Shown: positions 21,516-61,185 of the stretch, in pieces
Layout of the letters: each line of letters opens with the position of its first letter
Numbering within the stretch: the stretch's first letter is position 1
Assembly: GCF_000745235.1 (NCBI RefSeq)
Contig: NZ_JQNL01000001.1
Coordinates: 1,984,001 to 2,048,000, forward strand
Source: Luteibacter mycovicinus
Lineage (GTDB): Bacteria; Pseudomonadota; Gammaproteobacteria; Xanthomonadales; Rhodanobacteraceae
Reading direction: 5' to 3'
DNA length: 64,000 bases
The notes under the pieces: model-generated
The model's input: the letters and a program-made list of their open reading frames with translations, nothing else
What the model was told of the DNA's origin: nothing
The model's database searches: none
Made by a program: the position numbers and the translations under genes

Positions 21516-23381
<1,866 letters not shown>

Positions 23382-27853: not shown

Positions 27854-28690
27854 GTCGACCCACCGTAAACTTACGCCAGACATAAACCGAGGTCTCCGGG
27901 CGAAATATCCCCAAGGAGACCTACGAAGCGCAAAAGCAAATTCACCGAGAGCCAGATCGTTGCGACGCTAAAGCAGGTCGAAGGCGGCAGGCAGGTCAAG
28001 GACATGTGCCGGGAGCTGGGCATTTCCGAGGCGACCTATTACACCTGGAAATCGAAGTAGGGCGGCATGAAAGCGTCGGACGTTCATCGCCTGCGCGACC
28101 TGGAAGCAGAGGACAACAAGCTCAAACGCATGTACGCAGATTTGGCGATAGAGAACCACGGGCTTAAGGATCTCATTGCAAAAAAGCTGTAGACCCGGCG
28201 CATAAGCGCCCGCTCATCTCCTGGTCTGTCGAACACCATGGATGGAACGAGCGCCGGGCATGTGAGGCACTGGGCTTCTCGCGATCCACGCTGCGCTACA
28301 AGGCTCGCCCCGATCGGGATGAGCCCGTCATCGCTCTCTTGGCTGAGCTGGCTGAGCGATTCCCCGAGCGCGGCTTCGACAAGCTGTTCCAGATCATCCG
28401 TCGGCGTGGTCTGCCGTGGAACCACAAGAGGGTCTGGCGCGTGTATTGCCAGATGCAGTTGAATCACCGCCGACGCGGCAAGAGGCGTGTTCCGACGCGC
28501 CACCCGCTACCGTTGGTCGCTGGCGAAGCGATCAATGGCAGCTGGTCGGTCGACTTCATGTCTGACGCGCTCTGGGACGGTCACCGGTTCCGCACGTTCA
28601 ATGTCATTGATGACTTCAACCGCGAAGCACTCGCCGTGGAAATCGATCTCAATTTGCCTGCATCGCGCGTTGTTCGCACCCGAGGTTTCG
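27853..28690 (+). mobile_element. IS3-family element, left-end half (OrfA and OrfB N-terminus, inactive)
   Basis: After the end-like TGTCGACCCACCG, an AAGGAG site precedes what should be the OrfA start, but the codon is ACG. OrfA reads KRKSKFTESQIVATLKQVEG, then MCRELGISEATYYTWKSK, with a stop codon where IS3 relatives have Tyr, and continues to KKL-stop at 28191. OrfB follows (RRACEALGFSRSTLRYKARP, SWSVDFMSDALWDGHRF, VIDDFNREALAVEI), giving the first two Asp of the DDE triad, then loses similarity near 28680. The element is dead by three separate lesions: start codon, internal stop and lost 3' half. Confidence 0.88.
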
Positions 28691-28804
28691 CGATTCGTGC
28701 GCGTGCCGAAGCATCGGAAGACGTGCCCATGCACGTTCGCCCATGCCACTCACTCGATCGAGGGGGACGGCGCCGTTTTGAGACCTCTTTCCCCCGCACG
28801 ATGC

Positions 28805-29200
28805 TCAGTTCACAAGTCGAGAAGCAACTGACGATGAGTCCACAACAACGGAAACCCTGGTGACGCTACTTTTAGAGTCCACCCAAACCGATACCCTAAC
28901 GCTTCCAGGCGATACTTCCTGATCAAGCACTCGATCGATTTCGGCAGTAGCTATTGCGATGATGCCATTGGGCACAAGCAACGAATGACTGGCCACCAAT
29001 TCGAGACCTTTGGTTGGCGCCACTTCTGACAAAGACACTTCAACATCACCATCCATGTAGGGCCTTACCGCAACCGAAATGCATGATTCTGTTGCCGAGA
29101 CTATTTCGTCGTCTTCATATTCCGGAACGATCGCATCTTTGTTCCTTGGATCTACGATGAAAATAATGCCATGTTCCGCACTGATCACAACGCTCTTCAT
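28805..29200 (-). CDS. Hypothetical protein, probable immunity partner of the adjacent toxin tip
   Basis: A 131-residue acidic, beta-rich protein beginning MKSVVISAEHGIIFIVDP, with alternating hydrophobic strands (VRVSVWVDSK, VTRVSVVVDS) and no signal peptide. I recognise no family. Its ATG overlaps the stop of the preceding toxin-tip frame by 4 bp (ATGA), the usual toxin-immunity arrangement, so an immunity role is inferred from position. The 3' end borders IS3-derived sequence. Confidence 0.6.
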   Translation of the reverse strand: MKSVVISAEHGIIFIVDPRNKDAIVPEYEDDEIVSATESCISVAVRPYMDGDVEVSLSEVAPTKGLELVASHSLLVPNGIIAIATAEIDRVLDQEVSPGSVRVSVWVDSKSSVTRVSVVVDSSSVASRLVN

Positions 29201-34847: not shown

Positions 34848-37583
34848 TCATGGCGTCACACTCCGCGCGGGGCTGTAAGCCGAGCAGCCCACGGCGTTGC
34901 AGGCACGAACCATGTAGGTGATGCTGACGGTCTTGTCGTGCAGCGAGCTGAACGACAGGTCGGGTCCGTTGTAGACCAGCTGATTGTTCTCAAGCAGCTC
35001 GTAGCGTGTGGCATAGGGTTGGGCGACCCACTTGACCAGCACCGTCACCTTGGTGCCATGGTAGGTGTTCGTGAACGTGGGTCCGGGAGGAGCCGGCGGG
35101 ATATTGGAGACGGTGACGACGGCCTGCCCGCTGTAGGGGCCGCATCCGCCGCCGTTGCACGCCTGCACCTGGTAGACATAGGTGCCATCCCCCCGGCCGC
35201 TGGTGGACCAATTGGTGGCGCCATTGTTCTGCACGCCGGTCCAGCCGCCTCCGTTCACGGACTCGATGAGGTTGTAGGACGTCGCTCCACCCACGCCAGT
35301 CCACGAGATGGTGTAGGCACCGCTATTGGTGGTTCCACCGCCGGCGATCGAAGGGGCCGACGACGGAGGTACGGTGACGATCACCACACCGCTGGTGGCA
35401 TACCCGCTGCATCCGTTACCGTTGCATGCGCGGACGCGGTAGTACCAGTTGCCCGACGCCGGTTCATTGATCGTCGCGCTGGTCGCGGCACCGGCGAAGA
35501 CCTGGACCCAGTTGCCATCCTGGCTGTGCTCGACCTGATACGAGGTGGCATAGCTGGAGGCGGCCCAGCTCAGCGCCACGGCGCCTGTCGAACTGCCCGG
35601 CGCCGTGATGTTCGCTGGCGCTGGCGGCACATGCGCGACCGTCACCGTCGAGGAAGCGGTGGGCGTGCTGCAACCGTTCGCATTACACGCTGCCACACGG
35701 AATTGATAACTGCCGTCCGCCGGGCCGCTGACGGTCGTGCTGGTGGACGCGCCGGTGTAAAGCGTGGCCCAGGCGCCACTGTTGACCGACTGCTCGACCG
35801 TGTAGCTGGTCGCATGGCTCGCGGCCGACCAGCTCACGGCAATGCTCGACAGGTCCTGAGCCGCGGCCGCCGTGACGGTAGCGGGCGCGCCGGGGGCCAG
35901 CGTCGACGGCGGCACCACGAAGGAACCCGACCCTGAGAGCAGCGTGTTCTCACCGCCGACGGGCGAGATGCCGTGGACGTAGATGGCCTCGCCCGCGTAC
36001 TCGCCGCGCTGCTCTTCTGTGAGCGGGATGCTGAAGCGATGCTTGGTGCCGGTCGAGTGGCAATCGGCCTGGATCGTCTCCTCACTATCCAGGTTGGCGG
36101 TGAACGCACCGATACCCGTGCCGGAACCGGCCGGACCGCCGACGTAAAGGTGCACATCCACCGACGCGGCCAGTCCGCTGGCGCATGCCCATCCCGTGAT
36201 GACTGCGTCGGTGCCGGTGCTTACGCCTTCGATGGTCCCGAGGATGACCGAGGTGGCAGCTTTGCGGCTGGCCACCAGCTTCTTGCCCAGATAGACAAAA
36301 CTGGTGCCCGCCGTGGTCGCGTTGTCGTATTGCCACATCAGCTGCCCTGCGCTGTTGTAGGCGTAGTAGGTCGTGCCTTGAGGCGTTACCGCCTTCACCC
36401 GGTGGCCCGACGCGTCGTAGAGATAGTCGCCCTTTCCGTCGACGGACAGCAGTCGATTGGCCAGGTCGAAGGTCATCGCCTGCGTGTCTTTCTTGGTCGT
36501 ATTGCCCTGGGCGTCGTAGGTGAAACTGTGCACCGTCGCCCCATTGTTGCTGATCGAGGCCAGGCGATTGTTCGCGTCGTAGGTGTAGGTGTTCGTCCCG
36601 TTGCTGTCGGTCAGGCTGCGGATGTTGTTGAGGGTATCGTAGGTGTAGCTTTCCGTACCCCAAAGATTGTGGGCGGTGACCGACATCAAGCGACTCAGAC
36701 CATCGTAGGTCATGGTGCGCGTGCGTTGATCCGACCCCGACTGGTCGGTGATGCCGACGATGTTCCCCACGGCGTCGTACGTCATGTCTTCGCTCACCGC
36801 CGGCTGAGCGGCAGAGCCAAAACTGAAATTCAGCAGGAGCTTGCGATCGTTTTGTTCGGCGGAATAGACCGCGCCGTTGCCCAGCGTCGCCGCTTGCAGC
36901 TCTCCGTTGGCAAAATAGGTCGCGCCCGTCGCATACGCACCTGCCGTCGTCGGCTGACCCAGCGCGTTCGGCGTGGCCGCAACGGTGGTGCCATCGGGAT
37001 ATTGCGTGCTCGCCAGGCTTCCGTTGCCGTCGTAGCCATAGCCCAGGGTCCACGACCAACCGTCCACCGAGAGCACCTCGGCCGTCAGTAGCCCAAGCTT
37101 GTTGCGACCGTATGCCCACGATGCCGAACCGGTGGCATTGGCGTTGCTTCCGGAGCTGGCCGAGACGGCCGATGCAAGCTTACCGAGCGCGTCGTAGGTG
37201 AAGGTGGTCGCCAGCGAACCGTTCGGATAGGTGACCGAGGTGACGCGATTCATCGCGTCGTAGGCACTGACCGTCTTTGCCGAGTCCGCGACCTGATCGT
37301 AGCCACAACCATCCCCGTTGAAGGGCTGACCCGCCGCGGTCCACACCACGTTATCCGCCGCATCGTAGGCGGTCATCGTGCTGCCGGTCTCTGGCTCCCA
37401 GGACCGGCACACCCGATGCTGTCCGTCGTAGGTCATGGTCCGGGTGAGATCGCCTTGCACGACTGCCAGCACGTTGCCGTAGATGTCGCGAGTGATCGTT
37501 TGAGTGACGCTTTCCGGCGCTTCCACCTTCACCACGTTGTCGAAGCCCGGTTGGTCAAACACCTGGAAGTGACTGGTCGTCAC
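34848..37583 (-). pseudogene. YD-repeat/Rhs protein, downstream part, with C-terminal FN3 domains (split by frameshift)
   Basis: A 911-codon frame that could begin at GTG 37583 but has no signal peptide. It continues the YD repeats of the upstream gene (ITRDIYGNVLAVVQGDLTRT, MTYDGQHRVCRSWEPETGST, many YDA.N.V units), then ends with four fibronectin type III-like modules (each with 'ATSYTVEQS...W' and 'YRVRACNGNGCSGYATSG'-type strands) and stops at 34848. No Rhs core terminus or toxin tip is present in this protein. One extra G in a GGGG run at 37588-37591 separates it from the upstream half; repair would give a protein of about 1822 residues. Confidence 0.8.
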
Positions 37584-40317
37584 ATTGCCCCTTCGGGTCG
37601 GTTACGGTGCGCGCCCCACCGGCCGGGTAGGCCGTCGTAGACACCAGATTGTTCAGTTCGGAAAACTGGGTGGTGGTCACCGGACGCCCCAACACGTCGT
37701 AGGCGGTTCGGGTGCCCTGTACCAGCGCACCAAGGTCGAGCGTGCCCGACTGGGGATATGACTCGAACGTCTTGCGTCCAGCCCAGTCGTATTCGGTGCT
37801 CGACGAGACCGCCAGGGCACCGGTGGTGGCATCGGACCTTGTCGCCAGGACGGGACGCAGGAGAACGTCGAAGTCGGTCCGCTGACTCAGGTTGCCCTGC
37901 GTGATCGTGCGGACCCAATGGCTGCCGCCCAGCCCACGAGCATCGGCGGAAAACACATACGCGTAGGTCTTAGGCGCCCATGCGGTGCTGTCGCCCGCCG
38001 GGTAATCCACACGTGCAATGCGCCCGATGGCGTCGTAACCATAACTTGTCGTGGAACCGGCCTGATCGGTGATTGCAGCGATCTGCCCCAATCCATCGAC
38101 AGCCACCGTCTGGCTGGTGCTGTCGGGGTAGCCAATGGTGGTGGGAATGCCGCGGACGTAGCTGCCCAGCGTGGTGGTCTTTCCATTGCCATCGGTGAAG
38201 CTGGCGAGCTGGCCTTGCGCGTCGAACGTGTAGTCCATGACCTTCACGCCAAAGCTGTCGCGTTCGACCGGTGTCGCGGTGCCTGGGTCATAGACAGTCT
38301 TGCTGACTGTCTCGCCGCTCGTCAGGTTGTCTGTCTGCGAGGGAAGTCCGAGCACCCACAAGGCGGTGTTATCCGTGGCGGTCGACCGCTCACTGACGCT
38401 GTAGCCGAAGTTGTTGGATCGGGTCACATCCTGCGGTCGCGCAAAGACATCAAAAGCGGTGACATTCCACAGGTAAATGTCGGGCGTCGCGTTGGCTGCG
38501 GGGTCGACCGTCGTCTGTCGCGTCGTCATCGGCAGTTGCTCTTGCAACTGAGCCGTGTTGATGCGCTGCTGGGGCGCATAACCCCAGGGGTGAACGTAGG
38601 CTGCTGCCCGCGCGTCCAGTGTCGCATCGGGGTTCACATAGCTGTACGAGGTCGTGCGACGCAAAGCGGTGGTCGTGTCGCCGTCGAAGACCTCTTCCTT
38701 GAGCAGCTGGCTCTCCGTCCAGTCGTACCGGTTGGAGAAGGTGCTGCGCTCCACATGACCATCGGGATACGCCACATCGGTAGACACGGTCGTGGCGCAG
38801 GCCACCGTCGTGCAGTCTTGTGCCCAACTCTCGTTGGCCGCCGAGTAGCTGTAGCTCCACCCCAACCCATTCGGCGGCAGGCCCGTGCCGGTCAGCACCC
38901 GCTGCGTGATGGCCATGCTGTAGGACGCGTTGGGGATAGCCGCCCAGGTGCCCGGATAATTGGGCGTGGCAGGCACGTTCGGCCCGGACATGCACTCTTG
39001 CGGCACATACGAGCGCCCTCGTTTGAGCGGCGCGACGGTGTAGCTCGCTGCCAGGCCCGAGGGGTGCGTCACCGTGGCGGTGATCGGCGGGCTGTCCATG
39101 TTGCCCGGCACGCCAATCGCGCCGCAGGTACCTCCGGACGTACGAGAATCGATCCATGCGCCATTGAGCGGGTCGAGGTTATACCCCCAGCTACTCCCGT
39201 CCGGTTGCTGCACCGAGGTCAGCGTGTAGACCAGATTCGCGGTCGACTTCACATAACTGTAGGTCCACGTCCGCGTGCCCGCATCGCCGCCCTGGACGGT
39301 GATCGTGCTGACACGATGGCTGCTGGCCCCGGTGTCCGGATCGGTCTCGTACGTGAGGGTGACATGGCGACCGTCCGACGCAGCGATGTCGGTGACATCA
39401 TCCCCGCTGTAGGTGTAAGAAACCGAATTACCGAAGCGGTCTTCGATGCGGGTCACAAGCATCCGGCCTTCGCGGCGGGTGATGAAGTCCTCGGCGGACG
39501 CAAAGATGTGGATCCCGGCAAACGTCTCCGGGCCGGAACCGAGCGGACGCGTCAACGACGGCATGTATCGATAGGCGATGTGGTCCAGCCAATATTTGGT
39601 GCCATCCGGTGACACGGCCAGGAAGCCTTCGATGGATGCATCGTTAGCCGCCTGCGGCAAACAGCCCACCGCCCAGTTGGCGCGGGTCACGATGGGGTAA
39701 GCGAGCCCCGCCACGCCAGGCGTGGCCGTGTTCGCCGCAGACCGCGTCAGCAGATCCTGGTTGCCCTGACCCGGGATGCGCAGTTGGTAGCCCTGCCACC
39801 AGGTCTTTGGCTCCCAGTCGGCGCGCTCCGAATCGCCCGTGGGGGCGGCAACGCTGGGCGGTGGCCCGAAGCTCGAGCAGATCGCGTTGGGATTGCTCGC
39901 CGCGACCTGCCATCCGGTGACGTTGTTCTGGTCCGCCGTGACCGTGAAGATCTGGGGTAGTTCGATATCCCAGTCGCCGAAAGCGCGCGCCTGAAGATCG
40001 GGGCGATCTTCCACGCCGTGAAGCGCGAACGTGCGGCCGATGGTCAAGGCAGGTCCGGTGCCTGTCAGGGAGACGTCGGTCTGGCTGAAGCTGAGCGAGC
40101 CATCTTGCAACCCGATGCGTTCGCCGAACGGCGTGTCACCCAGCGGCTGGATGTCTTCGTTGACCTTGATGAGCTTTTTGTACTCATCCTCAGGCTTGGC
40201 GGTGGTCTGGCCGAGCGCAACGGTAGGCACGCCCGCCACGCACAACAGCATGACTATCCACAGCCCGCGCATCATCGGACGCGCATGGCGCGTCCACCCC
40301 TGATTCGTCCCTTGCAT
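37555..40317 (-). pseudogene. YD-repeat/Rhs protein, upstream secreted part (split by frameshift)
   Basis: A 920-residue frame starting at ATG 40317 (GGGGAA upstream). A signal peptide is visible at about 15-38 (MRGLWIVMLLCVAGVPTVAL). The N-terminal block GDTPFGERIGLQDGSLSFSQ, TDVSLTGTGPALTIGRTFAL is the usual start of secreted Rhs proteins of xanthomonads. Rhs/YD repeats follow (NSVSYTYSGDDVTDIAASDG, ITDQAGSTTSYGYDAIGRIA). The frame ends in GARTVTDPKGQCDDQSLPGV, where the last 10 residues come from the shifted frame: relatives would read DPKGNVTTSHF, which is the next frame. It is probably exported by Sec and forms the Rhs shell together with the downstream half, if intact in vivo. Confidence 0.85.
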
Positions 40318-41077
40318 CGCTTTCCCCAGCCAGTGGCCCCCTATCGAGCGTCCGACTTTAGAAATCAATTCGGGACGAGTACAAGCGTGTTCGTCTATGT
40401 CAAGAGCGAGTGAAAGCCATCAGCGTCGGTGCAAAACGTTTGCAGTACAGTGGGTTGCTTCGTACTTTCCTAGTGGCTGTAGGGTTTCGCCTACACAACG
40501 CGGTGGACGACACCTACAAGTCGCGACTCTTCTGCTGAGTACGGCACCGGGTGCAGGCGGGAATGCGAACGAAGGGAACGGTTGCCTATCGATCGTCAGT
40601 CGCAGACGCGGCGATCTGCGCGCCTCGGGATGCAATGAAGATCACAGCGCTATCGGTTCAACGCGTCTAGACTTGCCTGAGCCACCCTGACAGAGCACCG
40701 CGGCTTTCAAAGGAACCAAAAGCTCACCTGGTTCGTCCTGAAAGCGTCGGTCTATTCACCGCGTTCAAGTTTTGCTGGTCGCAGAAGGCAATCGAAACGC
40801 CTCGACAAGGGCGATAGCACTTGATGTAACTCTGAATATCGCCGCAAGCTTCTTGCACGGAGCGTTTAACTTACGCCTCCGCACCCTCACCTGCCATCGG
40901 CTCTGAGCGCCACTTGGCATTAGGCAAGTTCGAGTCCCATCTCCCTTTTTCACGTCGGCAGTCCCGAATGCCTCCATCGAGGGCGTGCCACGTTCAGTAA
41001 GAATCCCAGACATGTCCCGCTTGCCGACAGCCCCGGCCTGCTGCATATTTCGCCCTCTTCCCGACTGAGGCACGCGC
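40318..41077. other. Gene-free stretch between the Rhs locus and the LysR gene
   Basis: About 760 bp with no frame that has a ribosome binding site, family motif or protein-like composition. It contains the upstream region, and thus presumably the promoter, of the Rhs operon, and the start region of the LysR gene at its right end. No tRNA, repeat or IS end was recognised. Confidence 0.5.
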
Positions 41078-45912: not shown

Positions 45913-46600
45913 GTAACCATTCCGACATGATCCTCAGGCGTCCAACAACGATTTCACTTCGTTCTGGCTCGGCAAGCAGACCGGGTAACGTATTGATAAA
46001 ATCCGGATTTACAAGCAGGTTGGCAAAGGTGCGTCCTACCGCGTGGCGGACAGCAATAGGAGCCGTCGTCAGCTCCCGAACCAGTTCCTCTCGGCCATCA
46101 ACAATATTCAGTACGTCTTCGAGGTCGTGACTGGCGGCAATATCACAAGCGCCGCGATCGGCAAACGCCTCCAACTTCGTCGCGACGAACGCAACGGCAC
46201 TGGCCACACGGATCGCAAGCTCGTCGCCGAGGTTGAGAACTTCTGCTGTCGCCACTGTAAACGGGTACCACCGGTTCGAAAATCCCAGCACTCCGGCGTC
46301 CACAGGCATCAGATCAAAGATGACCCCGGACTCGCGATGGATCCAGCGGCAAATGACGCCGCTGTCCACATCCCGGCGAAAGCCTCGCTCGGCAACGCGC
46401 TCCTCCACTCGGTGAAACTGCGCACGCGCTGCTTGCACTACCGCATCGACATCTCTCGTCGCGCGAACGCTTTCGGCCAGCGGATCGGTAATCAGCAAGC
46501 CAGCAACCGCACCTCCAATAAAGACGACTTGCTCGCGAAGATCGCCCAGCGCCTCGGCGACCAAACGTAGGTATGGAAGATTCGGATCATCCTGGCGCAT
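45893..46600 (-). CDS. Nucleotidyltransferase-fold protein (AbiEii-like)
   Basis: A 235-residue protein with the minimal nucleotidyltransferase core: VVFIGGAVAGLLITDP, then SVRATRDVDAVVQAA, the GG...DxD pattern of the AbiEii/AbiGii type, and a third acidic strand around SGVIFDLMPVD. The C-terminal half is helical (FVATKLEAFADRGACDIAAS, HDLEDVLNIVDGREELV), as in AbiEii-like toxins. It overlaps the winged-helix gene by 14 bp upstream and the J-domain gene by 20 bp downstream. AbiE-type pairs couple a winged-helix antitoxin with such an enzyme; that this is a toxin-antitoxin module is an inference. Confidence 0.75.
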   Translation of the reverse strand: MRQDDPNLPYLRLVAEALGDLREQVVFIGGAVAGLLITDPLAESVRATRDVDAVVQAARAQFHRVEERVAERGFRRDVDSGVICRWIHRESGVIFDLMPVDAGVLGFSNRWYPFTVATAEVLNLGDELAIRVASAVAFVATKLEAFADRGACDIAASHDLEDVLNIVDGREELVRELTTAPIAVRHAVGRTFANLLVNPDFINTLPGLLAEPERSEIVVGRLRIMSEWLHDEEND

Positions 46601-47120
46601 CGGCAGTTCTCAGTTCGTTGGCCAGATAGTCTGCCGCCAGAGAGCGTTCGCGCGCGCGGCCTGATCGCAGCGCGTCCTGTAGGGCGAGGAGGCGATGCAA
46701 CGTCGGATCTCTCAGCGCCGCGAACGGGACGGACCGATATAAAGGACTCAGGATTGGCCCCTTCGCGCTTCCGCCGATGTGTGCCCAGACCGGCGCTTCG
46801 CCGGGAACGGCGGTGATCGCATCAGACAACGGCTCAGCCCCAAAGCTGGTCGGGACCCCTCGCTTGACCGGCCCGAGGACCGCAGGCCAGACGTATCTAA
46901 CTCCGTGCAGGGCAAAATCCAACAACGCAGGTCGAACCGGCGACCAATCGCCACGGCCGGAGCTCACCGCTAGCCCCGACGCCACGGCGCGCTTCACGCT
47001 GGCATGCACCTCCGAGGGGCTCATCGAAAGTGCTTGACCCAGCGCGGCATACGTCCAGCGCTGCCGCGGATTAGCCGCGACTTTGAGCAGCACGAGAAGA
47101 TCCTGCGGTTTCAGTTCCAC
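46587..47120 (-). CDS. Winged-helix (MarR-like) protein, probable autoregulator
   Basis: A 177-residue protein starting with GTG at 47120. The N-terminal winged HTH (about 1-65) reads PQDLLVLLKVAANPRQRWTY, AALGQALSMSPSEVHASVKR, AVASGLAVSSG. The rest is a conserved region without a named fold. The start codon lies only 10 bp from a perfect 30-bp palindrome (47131-47160), the expected operator for such a protein. Its stop overlaps the start of the nucleotidyltransferase gene, suggesting an antitoxin or regulator role for that protein. Confidence 0.78.
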   Translation of the reverse strand: MELKPQDLLVLLKVAANPRQRWTYAALGQALSMSPSEVHASVKRAVASGLAVSSGRGDWSPVRPALLDFALHGVRYVWPAVLGPVKRGVPTSFGAEPLSDAITAVPGEAPVWAHIGGSAKGPILSPLYRSVPFAALRDPTLHRLLALQDALRSGRARERSLAADYLANELRTADAPG

Positions 47121-55304: not shown

Positions 55305-55856
55305 CTATTTGCGAGGTTTCTTCCGGGCGCGCTTGCCGATGGTGGCCGGCTGGAGCGAGCCCGCGGGGCCCGCCACACCGTCTCCGACGCGCTCCATCCA
55401 CGACAGGTCGTCGACATAGGCGAGGAAGTGCTGGAGGTAACCGGGCGACGACTCGCGCATCAGCGCGATGGCGCGATGGACCAGTGCCGAGGAGTTGAGC
55501 GGCCCGGCGTTTTCGGGGACCGGAGCCATCGACTGGCGCAACTGGCTCTCGGTGCGGACCCGGGACCATATGCGGCGAAAGGCGTCGAGGGAAGGCAGCT
55601 CGGGGTAAGCCGCGCGCTCAGGTGACGGCTCGCGATCGCCGGCGGCCAGCGCGTCGACCAGCTCGCCAAGCGTGCCGCGGACGGCCGTCGGGCCGACACC
55701 GGGCCGGTCGCCCTCGACGCGCCCGACGTCCGCGGCACGCAACAGCGCGAGCCGCCGGTCGAGGATCTGGCGCAACTCGCCTTCCTGTCCGGCGGCTCGC
55801 CGCTCCATCGCCTCGATGAGGTGGCGGCGTAGCGTGTGGGTCGACGAAGCGCTCAC
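55305..55856 (-). CDS. DUF2894 family protein (motor-like operon)
   Basis: A 183-residue protein with an N-terminal helical region (LRRHLIEAMERRAAGQEGEL), and a conserved core ELPSLDAFRRIWSRVRTESQ, LRQSMAPVPENAGPLNSSAL, MRESSPGYLQHFLAYVDDLS. It ends in a basic tail. No signal peptide or membrane segment, so it should act in the cytoplasm. The start overlaps the OmpA-like gene by 4 bp. DUF2894 genes recur with DUF802 and OmpA-like genes in related proteobacteria, which suggests a soluble accessory to that membrane complex. Confidence 0.85.
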   Translation of the reverse strand: MSASSTHTLRRHLIEAMERRAAGQEGELRQILDRRLALLRAADVGRVEGDRPGVGPTAVRGTLGELVDALAAGDREPSPERAAYPELPSLDAFRRIWSRVRTESQLRQSMAPVPENAGPLNSSALVHRAIALMRESSPGYLQHFLAYVDDLSWMERVGDGVAGPAGSLQPATIGKRARKKPRK

Positions 55857-56497
55857 GGGGTCGCCGCTGCCGGCGCCGACGGCCTGGGCATCGGTGCGAT
55901 CTCGACGCGGCGATTTTTCGCCCTGCCCTCGTCGCTGGAGTTGGCGCTGACCGGCTGCTCCGAGCCGAACGCCGCGGCGAAGACCGACGAGGGCGGCACG
56001 CCATCCGCGATCAGGGCGCGCGTCACGGTCAGCGAGCGCTGGGCGGAAAGCTCCCAGTTATCGGCGAAATGCCGGTTACCGTCGCGGACCGGCTGATCGT
56101 CGGTGAAACCGCTCACCATCAGCACCTCGTCGCGGGTCTTGAGATAGCCGGTGAGTGGCCCGGCAAGGCTCTTCAGCACCTCGAGGCCTTCCGCTTGCAG
56201 CTGATCGGAATTGAGAGCGAAGAGCACGCTGCCGCGGATGCCGATGCGCCCGTCCACCAGCGTCACACGTCCGGCCGCGAGCGGCGCGGCCAGCGCCTGC
56301 TCGAGGGTGACACGGCGTTGCTCTTCGGCCTGCTTCTGCTTCACCGCTTCGTCCAGCTTGCTGGTGAGCTGCAGCTGCATGCCGATCACACCGACGAGGA
56401 TCAGCACGAAGGCACCGAGCAGGACCGACATCAGGTCGCCGAACGCGGCCCAGATCGGTGTACCGGCTTCGCCTTCGAGCTCGAAGTCGTCGCTCAT
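55853..56497 (-). CDS. OmpA/MotB-like protein with single N-terminal membrane segment
   Basis: A 214-residue protein. The N-terminal helix is TPIWAAFGDLMSVLLGAFVL, with an Asp at the start of the membrane segment in the place of the proton-binding Asp of MotB/TolR/ExbD proteins. A short coiled coil follows (KLDEAVKQKQAEEQRRVTLE). The C-terminal OmpA domain (about 85-205) has VLFALNSDQLQAEGLEVLKS, VSGFTDDQPVR, NWELSAQRSLTVTRALIADG and AKNRRVEI, which bind peptidoglycan. It overlaps both neighbours by 4 bp. Together with the DUF802 protein it forms a MotA/MotB-like pair. Confidence 0.88.
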   Translation of the reverse strand: MSDDFELEGEAGTPIWAAFGDLMSVLLGAFVLILVGVIGMQLQLTSKLDEAVKQKQAEEQRRVTLEQALAAPLAAGRVTLVDGRIGIRGSVLFALNSDQLQAEGLEVLKSLAGPLTGYLKTRDEVLMVSGFTDDQPVRDGNRHFADNWELSAQRSLTVTRALIADGVPPSSVFAAAFGSEQPVSANSSDEGRAKNRRVEIAPMPRPSAPAAATP

Positions 56498-58590
56498 GCG
56501 CTGCCCGCTCCGCTGGACAGACGCTGGCTCGCGACATGCTGCATCTCTTCGATGATCTGCTTCTGCGACAGCACGCTGAGGTCGACCACTTCCCGCGCCT
56601 GCGCCACGTAATAGGCCAGCTGCTCGTCACTGCGCGCAAGCGACGTATCGAGGGCGCCAGCGATGAGTTGCAGACGCTCCATCAATGCTTCGTTGGACTG
56701 ACCGAACAGCTGCACGGCGGCACCGAATGCCTCACCCAGGCTTGCCACCTCGATGGCGCTGCCGGTGAGTTGTGCCGCGACGCTGCCGAGTTTGCCGGTC
56801 TCCGCCTCCACGTGGTCGCTGAAGCGCGTACTGACGCGTTCGAGCAGATCGGCCGATGTGGTGACCAGTGCGTCGACGGCGGTGCGCTGCTGGGTGGACG
56901 CATGATTGACGGCGTCGAGCAGGGTCTCGAGCGTCGCCAGCAGACGGCTGCGTTCTTCGAGCATGGAGGTGTCGCGGACCATACTGTCGGAAAGTTTCTG
57001 ACGCAGTTCGGCGACGACCTCGGCGGCGACGCGCGGCGCTTCCGATGCGGCGTCGACCAGCCGCGAAATCTCCGCGATGGTTTCGCCCGCATGCGCCTGG
57101 GTGCGTGCCGAGACATCCGTCGCCGTGCGCTCCAGCGTGTCGCAGATCGCCTGCTCGCGGGCGGCGGCCTGCTCGGCCGTCTTTACCCACTGCGCACTCA
57201 GCGAGTCGGTCATGGCGGCGAGGGACGCGGTCCAGGCGGCGAGACGTTCCTCGTCACGCGCGGCGAGGGTCGACTGCAGATCGGCGTGCGACTGAGCGAC
57301 GGTGCGTACGAGCGACCCGGCCTGGTCGTCAAAGATGGTCGCCGCGGAGGCGAGCGCGTCCTGATGGCGTGTGACCAGTGCTTCGTTGGCCGCCTCCTGT
57401 CGCGACAGGGCGTCTTTCCATGCGGCCGATGTGGCCGATGCCGATGCGTCGAGACGGGTCGCGACGGCATCGACCAGATCCGACGAGCGCTCGCCGAAAC
57501 CGTCGACGAACCCGTCCAGTGAGGCGCGCAGATCCGCCGCCATCGCGTCGTTGGACGCCTGCTGCCGGACCAGAGCGTCGTTCCACAGGGCGGCCACATT
57601 CGACGTACTCAGCTGGAAGCCCGCCGACAGGCCTTCCAGCTGCTGCTGCACCGCACGGGTCACCGTGTCGTGCAAGGCGGCTGTCTCGCGGGCAAGGCCG
57701 GCCATCGTCGACTCCATGACCGGCTGAAAGGCCGCGCTCGCGGCGCGTGCGCTCTCGGTGACACTGTCCTTCAGCGACTGCTCGACGGAGCCGGCGAGGC
57801 GCGTGTAGATCGTCGCGGTGGCCGCGTGGAAGGCTTCCTGGCTGGCTAGCTGACGCTCGCTCGCGGCCACGTTGTGCGTTTCCATGGCGGTCATCATCGC
57901 CTGCAGGCGATCCATCAACGCCGGCATGGCTTCCGTCTGCTGCTGGAGCAGCCGGAACGACTCGTCGCGCTGATGCGACCGCGAAAAGACGCGCAGTGTC
58001 GTGGCGGCTTTCGCATCCAGAGCCTGTACGGCGTGCAGGCGCTCGCGGCGTACCAGCGCCGAGAGCAGGCCGAGCATCGCCGACGTCGCGACACCGGCGA
58101 TCGACGTACCGAACGCGAAGCCCAGGCCTTTCACGGGCGCGGCGAGCGAGCTGCGGATGGCCTGCAGGTCGGTCGCGCTTTCCAGCGCCAGCCCCGTACC
58201 GCGCAACGTCGCCATCATGCCGAGCAGCGTACCCAGCATGCCGAGCAGCACCAGCAGACCGACAAGATACGGCGTAAGCGCCGGTGTCGGCAGCGCCACG
58301 CGCTCGCCTTCGACACGCAGGCGCACGGCGTTGCGCAGGCTCGGATGCAGGCGATCCAGCCAGCCGGCCAGACCGGACGGAGCCACCTCGAGTTCGCCCA
58401 CGGCCTGACGGAGCGTGGTGGTCGCCTGATGGTATCGATACAGCTCGAGAGCGCCGGCGAGGTAACACGCGGCGATCAGCAGCGCGACCGCCGCGCCAAG
58501 CGGGTTGGAGCCCACATAGCCCGCACCGATCCAGATGACGGCCACGAGGCCCACGAGGAACACGGCGAGATGAAGAAAGTTTCTGAACAT
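56494..58590 (-). CDS. DUF802 protein: MotA/TolQ-ExbB-like membrane unit with long cytoplasmic tail
   Basis: A 698-residue protein. Residues 1-55 hold two helices (LHLAVFLVGLVAVIWIGAGY, LGAAVALLIAACYLAGALEL). About 105-180 hold two more: TPYLVGLLVLLGMLGTLLGM and KGLGFAFGTSIAGVATSAML, which is the MotA/TolQ/ExbB pore pattern. The remaining 480 residues are a helical, Ala/Ser/Asp-rich tail of repeated segments (such as MTAMETHNVAASERQLASQ and LWNDALVRQQASNDAMAADL), typical of DUF802. A MotA-like pore plus a very long tail is also the layout of ZorA of Zorya defence systems. Its stop overlaps the MotB-like gene by 4 bp. Confidence 0.85.
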   Translation of the reverse strand: MFRNFLHLAVFLVGLVAVIWIGAGYVGSNPLGAAVALLIAACYLAGALELYRYHQATTTLRQAVGELEVAPSGLAGWLDRLHPSLRNAVRLRVEGERVALPTPALTPYLVGLLVLLGMLGTLLGMMATLRGTGLALESATDLQAIRSSLAAPVKGLGFAFGTSIAGVATSAMLGLLSALVRRERLHAVQALDAKAATTLRVFSRSHQRDESFRLLQQQTEAMPALMDRLQAMMTAMETHNVAASERQLASQEAFHAATATIYTRLAGSVEQSLKDSVTESARAASAAFQPVMESTMAGLARETAALHDTVTRAVQQQLEGLSAGFQLSTSNVAALWNDALVRQQASNDAMAADLRASLDGFVDGFGERSSDLVDAVATRLDASASATSAAWKDALSRQEAANEALVTRHQDALASAATIFDDQAGSLVRTVAQSHADLQSTLAARDEERLAAWTASLAAMTDSLSAQWVKTAEQAAAREQAICDTLERTATDVSARTQAHAGETIAEISRLVDAASEAPRVAAEVVAELRQKLSDSMVRDTSMLEERSRLLATLETLLDAVNHASTQQRTAVDALVTTSADLLERVSTRFSDHVEAETGKLGSVAAQLTGSAIEVASLGEAFGAAVQLFGQSNEALMERLQLIAGALDTSLARSDEQLAYYVAQAREVVDLSVLSQKQIIEEMQHVASQRLSSGAGSA

Positions 58591-58600
58591 GATTTCTCAG

Positions 58601-59296
58601 TTATCGGGTACGGAGCGCGGCGAGCAGCGCCTCGACCGGTTGGAAACGAACATCGACTTCGGCCAGCAGCACGGCCTGCATGTCCTTGCGGAAGGCATCC
58701 AGCCATGCCCCGGCATCGTCGGGGCGGGCCGCCTGGCGCAGCCGGTCGAAGTGATGGGCGAGCAGGGCGGGCACGTTGCCCATCAGCGACTGCTCGCGAC
58801 CGCTCAGCGCGAGCTCCATGACGGCGTCGACTTCCGCGAGGCGGGCCATCTCATCCGATGAGGCCGCCAGAATGTCCCGCAAACGCCCACGCAGGTGCCC
58901 GGTGTGGGACTGCATGGACCTCTGGAGCGTGGTGTAGCGCTGCCGAAGCGGCGCGAAGTCGGGCGTCGTGCCCGCGACGATACCCCGGGCGACGAGCTCA
59001 CGGGCTCCGGTGATGGCCTGGACCAGCGTTTGCCTGACCCGGGCGCACTCGGCCGCTTCGTCGTCGACGGGGTGCGACACCTCCGCGGCGATCGCTTCCA
59101 CCTTCCCGTCCAGCGCCGCCGACAAGGCAAGCGCATGGGTCCAGTCGAGCCACTGGCTCAACCGGTCCGGCAACGCGGCGTTCGGGCGACCCGTATCAAC
59201 GTCGGTGAGACGCGACAACAGGCGGATGAACGTGGGTCCACGGACGCTGGTCCGCTGGTGTGCTTGCACGGGTTCTGCTGGCGAAAAAACGCCCAT
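58601..59296 (-). CDS. DUF3348 family protein (first gene of the motor-like operon)
   Basis: A 231-residue soluble helical protein. The ATG at 59296 gives RTSVRGPTFIRLLSRLTDVD, LPDRLSQWLDWTHALALSAA and LDGKVEAIA near the N-terminus, the DUF3348 signature, followed by RQRYTTLQRSMQSHTGHLRG and LLAHHFDRLRQAARPDDAGA. No obvious ribosome binding site precedes this ATG, so the start is less certain. The stop lies 10 bp before the DUF802 start. Divergent from the GH13 gene; the 146 bp between them should hold both promoters. Confidence 0.83.
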   Translation of the reverse strand: MGVFSPAEPVQAHQRTSVRGPTFIRLLSRLTDVDTGRPNAALPDRLSQWLDWTHALALSAALDGKVEAIAAEVSHPVDDEAAECARVRQTLVQAITGARELVARGIVAGTTPDFAPLRQRYTTLQRSMQSHTGHLRGRLRDILAASSDEMARLAEVDAVMELALSGREQSLMGNVPALLAHHFDRLRQAARPDDAGAWLDAFRKDMQAVLLAEVDVRFQPVEALLAALRTR

Positions 59297-59442
59297 TTTA
59301 CACGCGAATGGCAACGCCCCGTATCGATCGACAGGCCAGACCGGCCCTGAGCAAGCCGCCACCCGGCTTGCGCGTTCGTCGGCATCTGGCCACGGGAGCC
59401 CTGCGTTACTATCGGCGGTCTTCCAGTCAGGGGATGTGGCCA

Positions 59443-61185
59443 ATGGGTATCTTTCGCCGGCTCGCGGGTGTCGCTGGCTCGCTTTGTCTTTTCTGGGCGG
59501 CACTGGATGCGACGGCGGCGGATACGACGGCACCGTGGTGGAAACACGCTCTCGTCTATGAGATCTACCCCCGCAGCTTCGGTGACAGCAACGGCGACGG
59601 TGTCGGCGACCTCAACGGAATCAATGCCCATCTGGATGACCTGCAGAAGCTCGGAGTAGATGCGATCTGGATCGCGCCCATGTACCCGTCGCCGCAGGCG
59701 GATTTCGGCTACGACATCTCCGACTACCAGGCCATCGACCCGCAATACGGCACGATGGCGGACTTCGATCGCCTGCAACAGGCCGCAAAGCAGCGCCACA
59801 TCCATGTCATCCTCGACATGGTGATGAACCATACGTCCGATCACCACGCGTGGTTCGTCGAATCCGCCAGTTCACGGAATAACCCGAAATCGGACTGGTA
59901 CGTGTGGAACGACGGCATCCCTGCCGACACCGCGCACCTCTCCGCCGTGCAGCGGCGGAACATCCATGACGGCAAGGCGCCGCCCAACAACTGGGAGTCG
60001 ATGTTCGGCGGCTCGGCATGGCAGTGGGTGCCGGCGCGCCACCAGTTCTATTACCACCGCTTCTACATCCAGCAGCCGGATCTCAACTGGCGCAATCCCG
60101 ACGTGGAGAAAGCCATGTTCGGCGCGATACGCTTCTGGCTGGATCGCGGCGTGGACGGCTTCCGGCTCGATGCCATCTCCGTGCTGTTCGAGGACACGAA
60201 GCTACGGAACGATCCCGAACGTCCTGGTACGAATGCGCAGGGCGAGCCGAACCTCAACTACCTCTACAGCGACAAACTGCCCGAGGTCCATGGCGTGATG
60301 AGACGCCTGCGTGCACTGGTCGACAGCTATCCGGGCCAACGCGTGCTGATCGGCGAAACCTACGAGCCCAACATCAAGCTGCTGGACGAGTGGTATGGCA
60401 CGAAGGAAGTGCCGCAACTGCAGTTGCCGATGAACCTGCAGCTGGGCTTCGGCTGGCAGGCAAGCTTCGACGCCACATGGTTCCGCACGCGCCTTCAGGA
60501 GTCGCAACAGGTTCACGGGCAACCGTTGCTCGTTGTCGATAACCACGACAATCCACGTTCGATCGATCGGTTTGGCGATGGCACGCATGACGTGGAGCGC
60601 GCGAAGGTCGTCGCGGCGGCGCTGCTGACGTCCCGCGCTGTCGCCCTCACCTACTACGGCGCTCCCATCGGCATGACCACCGCGACACCCACGCGGGTCG
60701 AAGACGTGCGCGATCCGGTCGGCGTCACCGGCTGGCCGAAGGACAAGGGGCGTGACGGTGAGCGCACGCCAATGCAGTGGACGCCGGGGCCGCAGGCCGG
60801 CTTTTCGACGAACCCCAGAACGTGGCTGCCGGTGAATCCCAACCACGCAACGGTCAACGTCGAGGATGAGCGGAAGCAACCCGAGTCGTTGCTCAACTGG
60901 CATCGTCAGCTGATCGCGCTTCGACGGGACAACCCGGCATTGCGCGATGGCGCGATGACATTTCTGGATACCCGCGATCCGAACGTCCTGATCTATCGAC
61001 GCGAGGGAGAACATCCGGTGCTGGTGATGCTCAACTTCAGTGGTTCGGCGCAATTGGTGCCGAAGCGGCTGATGCAGGGCAAGGTCAGGACGCTTGCGGC
61101 AAGTGAGGTTTCCCTGCGTGGGCTGGAAACGCTGGACGGGGCGTCACTTCCCGCTTACTCGGCCTGGATTGTCACACCGGATTGA
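59443..61185 (+). CDS. Secreted GH13 alpha-glucosidase
   Basis: A 580-residue enzyme starting at ATG 59443 (AGGGG 9 nt upstream) with a signal peptide (LAGVAGSLCLFWAALDATAA). The barrel has YEIYPRSFGDSNGDGVGDLN, VILDMVMNHTSDHH, QQPDLNWRNPDVEKAMF, VDGFRLDAIS with the nucleophile Asp, VLIGETYEPN with the acid Glu and VVDNHDNPRS with the third acid. The QPDLNW segment points to alpha-1,4/1,6-glucosidase or related activity rather than alpha-amylase. It probably acts in the periplasm on maltooligosaccharides. No sugar transport genes are near. Confidence 0.93.
   Translation: MGIFRRLAGVAGSLCLFWAALDATAADTTAPWWKHALVYEIYPRSFGDSNGDGVGDLNGINAHLDDLQKLGVDAIWIAPMYPSPQADFGYDISDYQAIDPQYGTMADFDRLQQAAKQRHIHVILDMVMNHTSDHHAWFVESASSRNNPKSDWYVWNDGIPADTAHLSAVQRRNIHDGKAPPNNWESMFGGSAWQWVPARHQFYYHRFYIQQPDLNWRNPDVEKAMFGAIRFWLDRGVDGFRLDAISVLFEDTKLRNDPERPGTNAQGEPNLNYLYSDKLPEVHGVMRRLRALVDSYPGQRVLIGETYEPNIKLLDEWYGTKEVPQLQLPMNLQLGFGWQASFDATWFRTRLQESQQVHGQPLLVVDNHDNPRSIDRFGDGTHDVERAKVVAAALLTSRAVALTYYGAPIGMTTATPTRVEDVRDPVGVTGWPKDKGRDGERTPMQWTPGPQAGFSTNPRTWLPVNPNHATVNVEDERKQPESLLNWHRQLIALRRDNPALRDGAMTFLDTRDPNVLIYRREGEHPVLVMLNFSGSAQLVPKRLMQGKVRTLAASEVSLRGLETLDGASLPAYSAWIVTPD

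Follow-up and report, generated by a model that had tools for sequence, protein, structure and literature searches.

The window analysed here, a stretch of 64,000 nucleotides of Luteibacter mycovicinus, carries at positions 55305-59296 what is very probably a complete and intact-looking Zorya type III anti-phage operon with a ZorAB motor. Its identity as type III is near certain, and homology with types I and II makes the ZorAB motor mechanism likely.

Gene layout of the operon

The host genome is a single contig of 4.63 Mb, and the four genes follow one another on the minus strand in the order DUF3348, ZorA3, ZorB3 and DUF2894:

58601-59296, minus strand: DUF3348 gene, 231 aa; Pfam PF11828 (1.4e-73), PADLOC PDLC00658 (7.6e-83)
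56494-58590, minus strand: ZorA3 gene, 698 aa; PADLOC PDLC00649 (E=0, 1133 bits, 698/698 residues), DUF802 in two stretches (3e-25)
55853-56497, minus strand: ZorB3 gene, 214 aa; PADLOC PDLC00651 (1.7e-112, positions 1-210 of 215), OmpA (2e-17)
55305-55856, minus strand: DUF2894 gene, 183 aa; Pfam PF11445 (4.9e-41), PADLOC PDLC00652 (2.6e-59)

The gene set DUF3348-DUF802-MotB/OmpA-DUF2894, which a first-pass annotation had read from the bare sequence, is real, since Pfam matches were obtained for all four proteins and the coordinates agree. The spacing it gave was likewise borne out by the gene coordinates, with a 10 bp gap between DUF3348 and ZorA3 and overlaps of 4 bp both between ZorA3 and ZorB3 and between ZorB3 and DUF2894. 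The DUF3348 gene starts with the ATG at 59296, and an alternative longer GTG frame reaches 59533. The divergent alpha-amylase-family gene (59260-61185) has a longest frame that runs into the beginning of the DUF3348 gene; the true start of the amylase-family gene probably lies further inside its frame, and 59437 was used for the context comparison. The amylase-family protein also matches a GlgB-like PADLOC model (2.3e-37).

Identity as Zorya type III

The PADLOC type III models match all four proteins of the operon. According to Payne et al. (2021, PMC8565338), Zorya type III is defined by ZorAB flanked by DUF3348 and DUF2894 genes, and an example from Stenotrophomonas nitritireducens DSM 12575 protected E. 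coli from phage; the two DUF proteins were proposed there to regulate ZorAB in place of ZorC, ZorD and ZorE. Compared by components and HMM families, that system has the same four components as the locus described here and no difference between the two was found. DUF3348 is named ZorF and DUF2894 ZorG in both Payne et al. (2021, PMC8565338) and Mariano et al. (2025, PMC11890865), whereas the naming is reversed in PADLOC-DB 2.0.0 (DUF3348 as ZorG3 and DUF2894 as ZorF3); the DUF names are used below.

The locus had been put forward earlier as an uncharacterised machine, set apart from Zorya by its DUF3348 and DUF2894 partners. Neither description can be kept, as its composition is the published definition of type III, phage protection in E. 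coli is in print, and these very partners define the type. The locus matches a system which was named and shown to block phage in 2021; it is therefore real, yet an ordinary case of a defence system already known in kind. What seemed a machine of its own can now be named; its kind has been tested against phage in print and is listed in catalogues of defence systems. In genome annotation the Zorya identity is hidden, because NCBIfam calls the ZorB family found here a hypothetical protein (PRK09040) and Pfam gives DUF names to three of the four proteins. Among the matches listed from the open-licence literature, a body of text with subscription papers mostly outside it, no paper on the type III mechanism was found.

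Among the matches listed (80 loci), ZorB of the Stenotrophomonas loci is 75-78% identical to that of the window. One record titled Bacillus subtilis SK7B5 (L086, JAHREJ010000010.1) has a ZorB3 75% identical to that of the window and ranks among the Stenotrophomonas loci; it is probably a contaminated assembly.

Distribution and integrity of the four-gene unit

A strong ZorA3 match (E 6e-171 or better) was found in 54 of the 147 genomes of the family, and DUF3348 (54/147) and DUF2894 (54/147) occur in the same 54, with the three genes together on one strand in every case (54/54). This upholds the fixed gene set proposed for the locus at first sight. The remaining 93 genomes have neither DUF3348 nor DUF2894 and no ZorA3 match above 44 bits; they include the other 32 of the 86 ZorA3-matching family genomes, whose matches of at most 44 bits lie nearly all within the membrane core. 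Within the genus, strong ZorB3 is present in 21 of 23 genomes. In a class-wide sample of 229 genomes DUF3348 occurs in six, the window's own genome counted, and in the other five a ZorA relative adjoins it.

The comparison took in 133 loci outside the window, some genomes being counted more than once (e.g. L021, L036 and L142). All four genes lie on one strand in 128 of these loci, of which the scripted order check passed 125. The check flagged the other three (L012, L052 and L063), and we read their coordinates to mean that this came from sorting overlapping stop-to-stop frames by their starts. The five loci without DUF3348 each end at a contig edge. The four-gene arrangement is not due to chance. 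One DUF2894 match within the genus (G112:C1:276535-276897) has an internal stop codon, and this copy may be broken or misread.

Motor anatomy and the rod of ZorA3

ZorB3 has a single membrane helix (residues 22-40 by hydropathy), with D21 immediately before it, and a periplasmic OmpA/MotB domain. D21, D133 and R154 are each kept in 134/134 sequences (the window and the 133 loci). Within the OmpA fold we take D133 and R154, from work on OmpA, to be the peptidoglycan-binding Asp-Arg pair. Loss of the membrane Asp among relatives, which the first-pass annotation had set as grounds for giving up its reading, was not seen, and the stator-like anatomy and the peptidoglycan-binding-type domain which it had recognised are upheld by the Pfam OmpA match and by the match to MotB structures.

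The MotA-like membrane pattern and long tail ascribed to ZorA3 were also confirmed, as hydropathy gives four helices (about 5-23, 30-48, 109-127 and 158-180) and no further helix over the remaining 500 or so residues. In the core, T121, T162, S163 and S170 are invariant in the rows which have a residue at these positions, the gaps being in 5 to 7 of 130 rows. A Ser/Thr ring has been described for types I and II (PMC11890865), and the conserved core residues of ZorA3 would fit such a ring.

Conservation along the tail is uneven. In the 130-row alignment, columns conserved at 97% or more number 7 of 245 in the middle tail (236-480) and 52 of 195 in the distal tail (481-675), and the median identity to the window is 51% and 77%, respectively. 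In this count no column reaches 97% in either the first 104 residues or the membrane core, in part owing to core gaps in 5 to 7 of the 130 rows. The length of ZorA3 ranges from 625 to 1046 residues across 129 relatives and is exactly 698 in 51 of them (four shorter contig-cut rows were left out of this count, and L136, which was retained, is likewise cut off by the end of its contig). Of the 12 insertion points of at least 20 columns, 11 fall at 237-465 and one at 503. DUF802 stretches number 0, 2, 2, 2, 2, 2 and 5 in the seven relatives scanned with Pfam; since their number varies in this way, DUF802 does not mark a new machine but is a segment repeated in the tail. Copy number accounts for some of the length differences, the longest form (1046 residues) having just two stretches. 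A length-variable ZorA3 rod under far better conserved distal 195 residues is the small new point of our study.

Proposed mechanism and the question of a nuclease

To the composition, gene order, all-or-none presence, conserved residues and rod variation observed here can be added a course of events which we infer for this locus, from phage sensing to the last step. By analogy with types I and II, whose 5:2 ZorA:ZorB motor has been solved by cryo-EM (Mariano et al. 2025, PMC11890865), an inner-membrane motor driven by ions would be built from five ZorA and two ZorB. ZorB would sense when an infecting phage disturbs the peptidoglycan, to which it would then anchor, and the ion flow past D21 would rotate or rearrange the ZorA pentamer with its long cytoplasmic rod. 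The critical Asp of ZorB is D24 in type I and D21 in type II (Mariano et al. 2025, PMC11890865). DUF3348 and DUF2894 would stand in for ZorC and ZorD or for ZorE, docking most likely at the rod's conserved distal cap and not at the length-variable shaft; DUF3348 would probably be a helical adaptor, and DUF2894 would probably meet nucleic acid through its basic tail. It is the conservation of the cap which suggests docking there, and this placement, together with the roles given to the two proteins, is rather doubtful. As the rod length varies under a conserved cap, docking of both partners at the cap is directly testable.

The locus shares with Zorya I (ZorABCD) and Zorya II (ZorABE) the MotA/MotB-like pair, the membrane Asp, the peptidoglycan-binding-type domain and the long ZorA tail. 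Unlike these types, it has no adjoining ZorC, ZorD or ZorE, and its partners have no detected nuclease or helicase family. Among the seven neighbouring proteins of the operon (DUF2127, AraC, the amylase-family enzyme and four others) no match to ZorC or ZorD and none to the ZorE nickase was found, and DUF3348 and DUF2894 contain no HNH family. Type III is the Zorya without a recognised nuclease.

A nuclease may still be brought to the rod as in types I and II, where this is part of the published model (PMC11890865), with DUF2894 or DUF3348 being a nuclease of an unrecognised kind or recruiting one of the host. The basic tail of DUF2894 and its invariant residues, which include W97, N121, R128, Y140 and D149 in a 53-row alignment, speak for this possibility; a net charge of at least +5 over the last 25 residues is found for DUF2894 in 110 of 133 relatives, for ZorB in 22 of 133 and for DUF3348 in 0 of 128. 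Against it, neither protein gave a nuclease family in Pfam (to E=10) or in NCBIfam (to E=1), and among solved structures neither has a relative beyond chance (best E 0.26 for DUF3348 and 0.47 for DUF2894), endonuclease III (E 0.98) being one of three chance-level matches of DUF2894. Moreover, DUF3348 is predicted to be a plain helical bundle; its AlphaFold2 model is all-helical (pLDDT 75.6, pTM 0.71), and no solved structure matched it above the level usual for helical bundles. The model of DUF2894 is helical but unreliable (pLDDT 62.8, pTM 0.30). On this evidence a nuclease at the rod is possible, with the balance somewhat against it.

The opposite can also be speculated, namely that type III is nuclease-free and the motor itself is the weapon. 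Protection would then come from motor work or an ion leak and not from DNA cutting, and DUF3348 and DUF2894 would couple the rotating rod, with its clade-specific length, to incoming phage DNA or to the nucleoid through the basic tail of DUF2894. This form of the mechanism is considered unlikely.

Relation to MotAB, TolQR and ExbBD stators

With flagellar MotAB and with TolQR and ExbBD, the locus has in common a subunit with an Asp on a single helix and an OmpA/MotB domain which matches solved MotB chains (3khn, 6.5e-17). It differs from them in the long tail, in the fixed DUF3348 and DUF2894 partners and in ZorA3 having no significant match to MotA_ExbB (Pfam PF01618: E=4.9, 7.3 bits, under the cut-off of 22.9). 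Type III could have arisen independently from a MotAB/TolQR-type pair, the long-tail layout being a convergence with types I and II. The best stretch which ZorA3 shares with the ZorA1 model covers only about 80 residues of the membrane core (ZorA2: about 200), and other OmpA-domain proteins of the genus fit the ZorB3 model better (up to 82 bits) than ZorB3 fits the PADLOC ZorB1 model (62.8 bits). The ZorB3 model also finds matches in 4 of 14 control genomes. As PADLOC holds defence models only, the cross-matches to ZorA1 and ZorB1 say little. NCBIfam also contains models of MotA, TolQ and ExbB. There the sole ZorA-like model to match ZorA3 is that of an anti-phage ZorA (antiphage_ZorA_2, 2.9e-7, below the model's own cut-off), which tells against a separate origin. 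Independent descent is regarded as improbable.

Defence or housekeeping

The evidence was weighed in favour of defence over housekeeping. A housekeeping envelope machine of Xanthomonadales and Burkholderiales, serving force transmission or stress signalling and affecting phage only as a by-product, is the least probable of the alternatives and very unlikely. It draws on the near-fixed state of the operon in the genus (21/23), which is unusual for a mobile defence gene, and on the report that in R. solanacearum type III Zorya counts among the highly conserved (core or quasi-core) defence systems (PMC13064858). Carriage on plasmids is rare (27 of 72,556 records, each of 366 kb or larger), 50,697 phage records gave no match, and the 27 non-Zorya proteins chosen for a PADLOC scan between 13.4 and 63.9 kb of the window gave three single matches and no second complete system. 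On the other side stand the patchy, all-or-none presence in the family (54/147) and the rarity across the class (DUF3348 in 6 of 229 sampled genomes), and a related system protected E. coli, outside its native host (PMC8565338). Further, in a comparison of 30 genomes the ZorA distances were only weakly correlated with those of RpoB (Spearman 0.24, a value reached by 26 of 1000 permutations) and strongly with those of ZorB (0.84); the nearest relative belongs to the same genus in 15 of 24 genomes for ZorA vs 21 of 24 for RpoB.

The context of the locus also differs between species of the genus, which again tells against housekeeping. In 20 regions of the genus (one of only 7 kb), the aldo-keto reductase of the window has a close copy near the operon in six and DUF2127 lies near it in four, while the amylase, DUF2127 and the reductase were all common with the window in one. 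For expression, a report on B. cenocepacia K56-2 infected with phage Bcep176 describes a change in no more than the first one or two genes of the Zorya I and Zorya III operons, and Zorya III is absent from the list of transcriptionally active systems given there by its authors (PMC12584637).

Other features of the window were noted beside the operon. A protein of 177 aa at 46587-47120, about 8 kb from the Zorya operon, matches the phage-defence candidate model PDC-M21A (2.3e-38), and the C-terminal 250 residues of the product of 21516-23381 match the MzaA defence model (1e-76). Two large RHS-repeat genes lie on the minus strand at 34848-40368, and one of them additionally matches fibronectin type III and chitinase A N-terminal families. 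At 28339-28863 there is a partial integrase-like frame with matches under the Pfam cut-offs; together the RHS genes and this frame look like an RHS- and insertion-rich segment.
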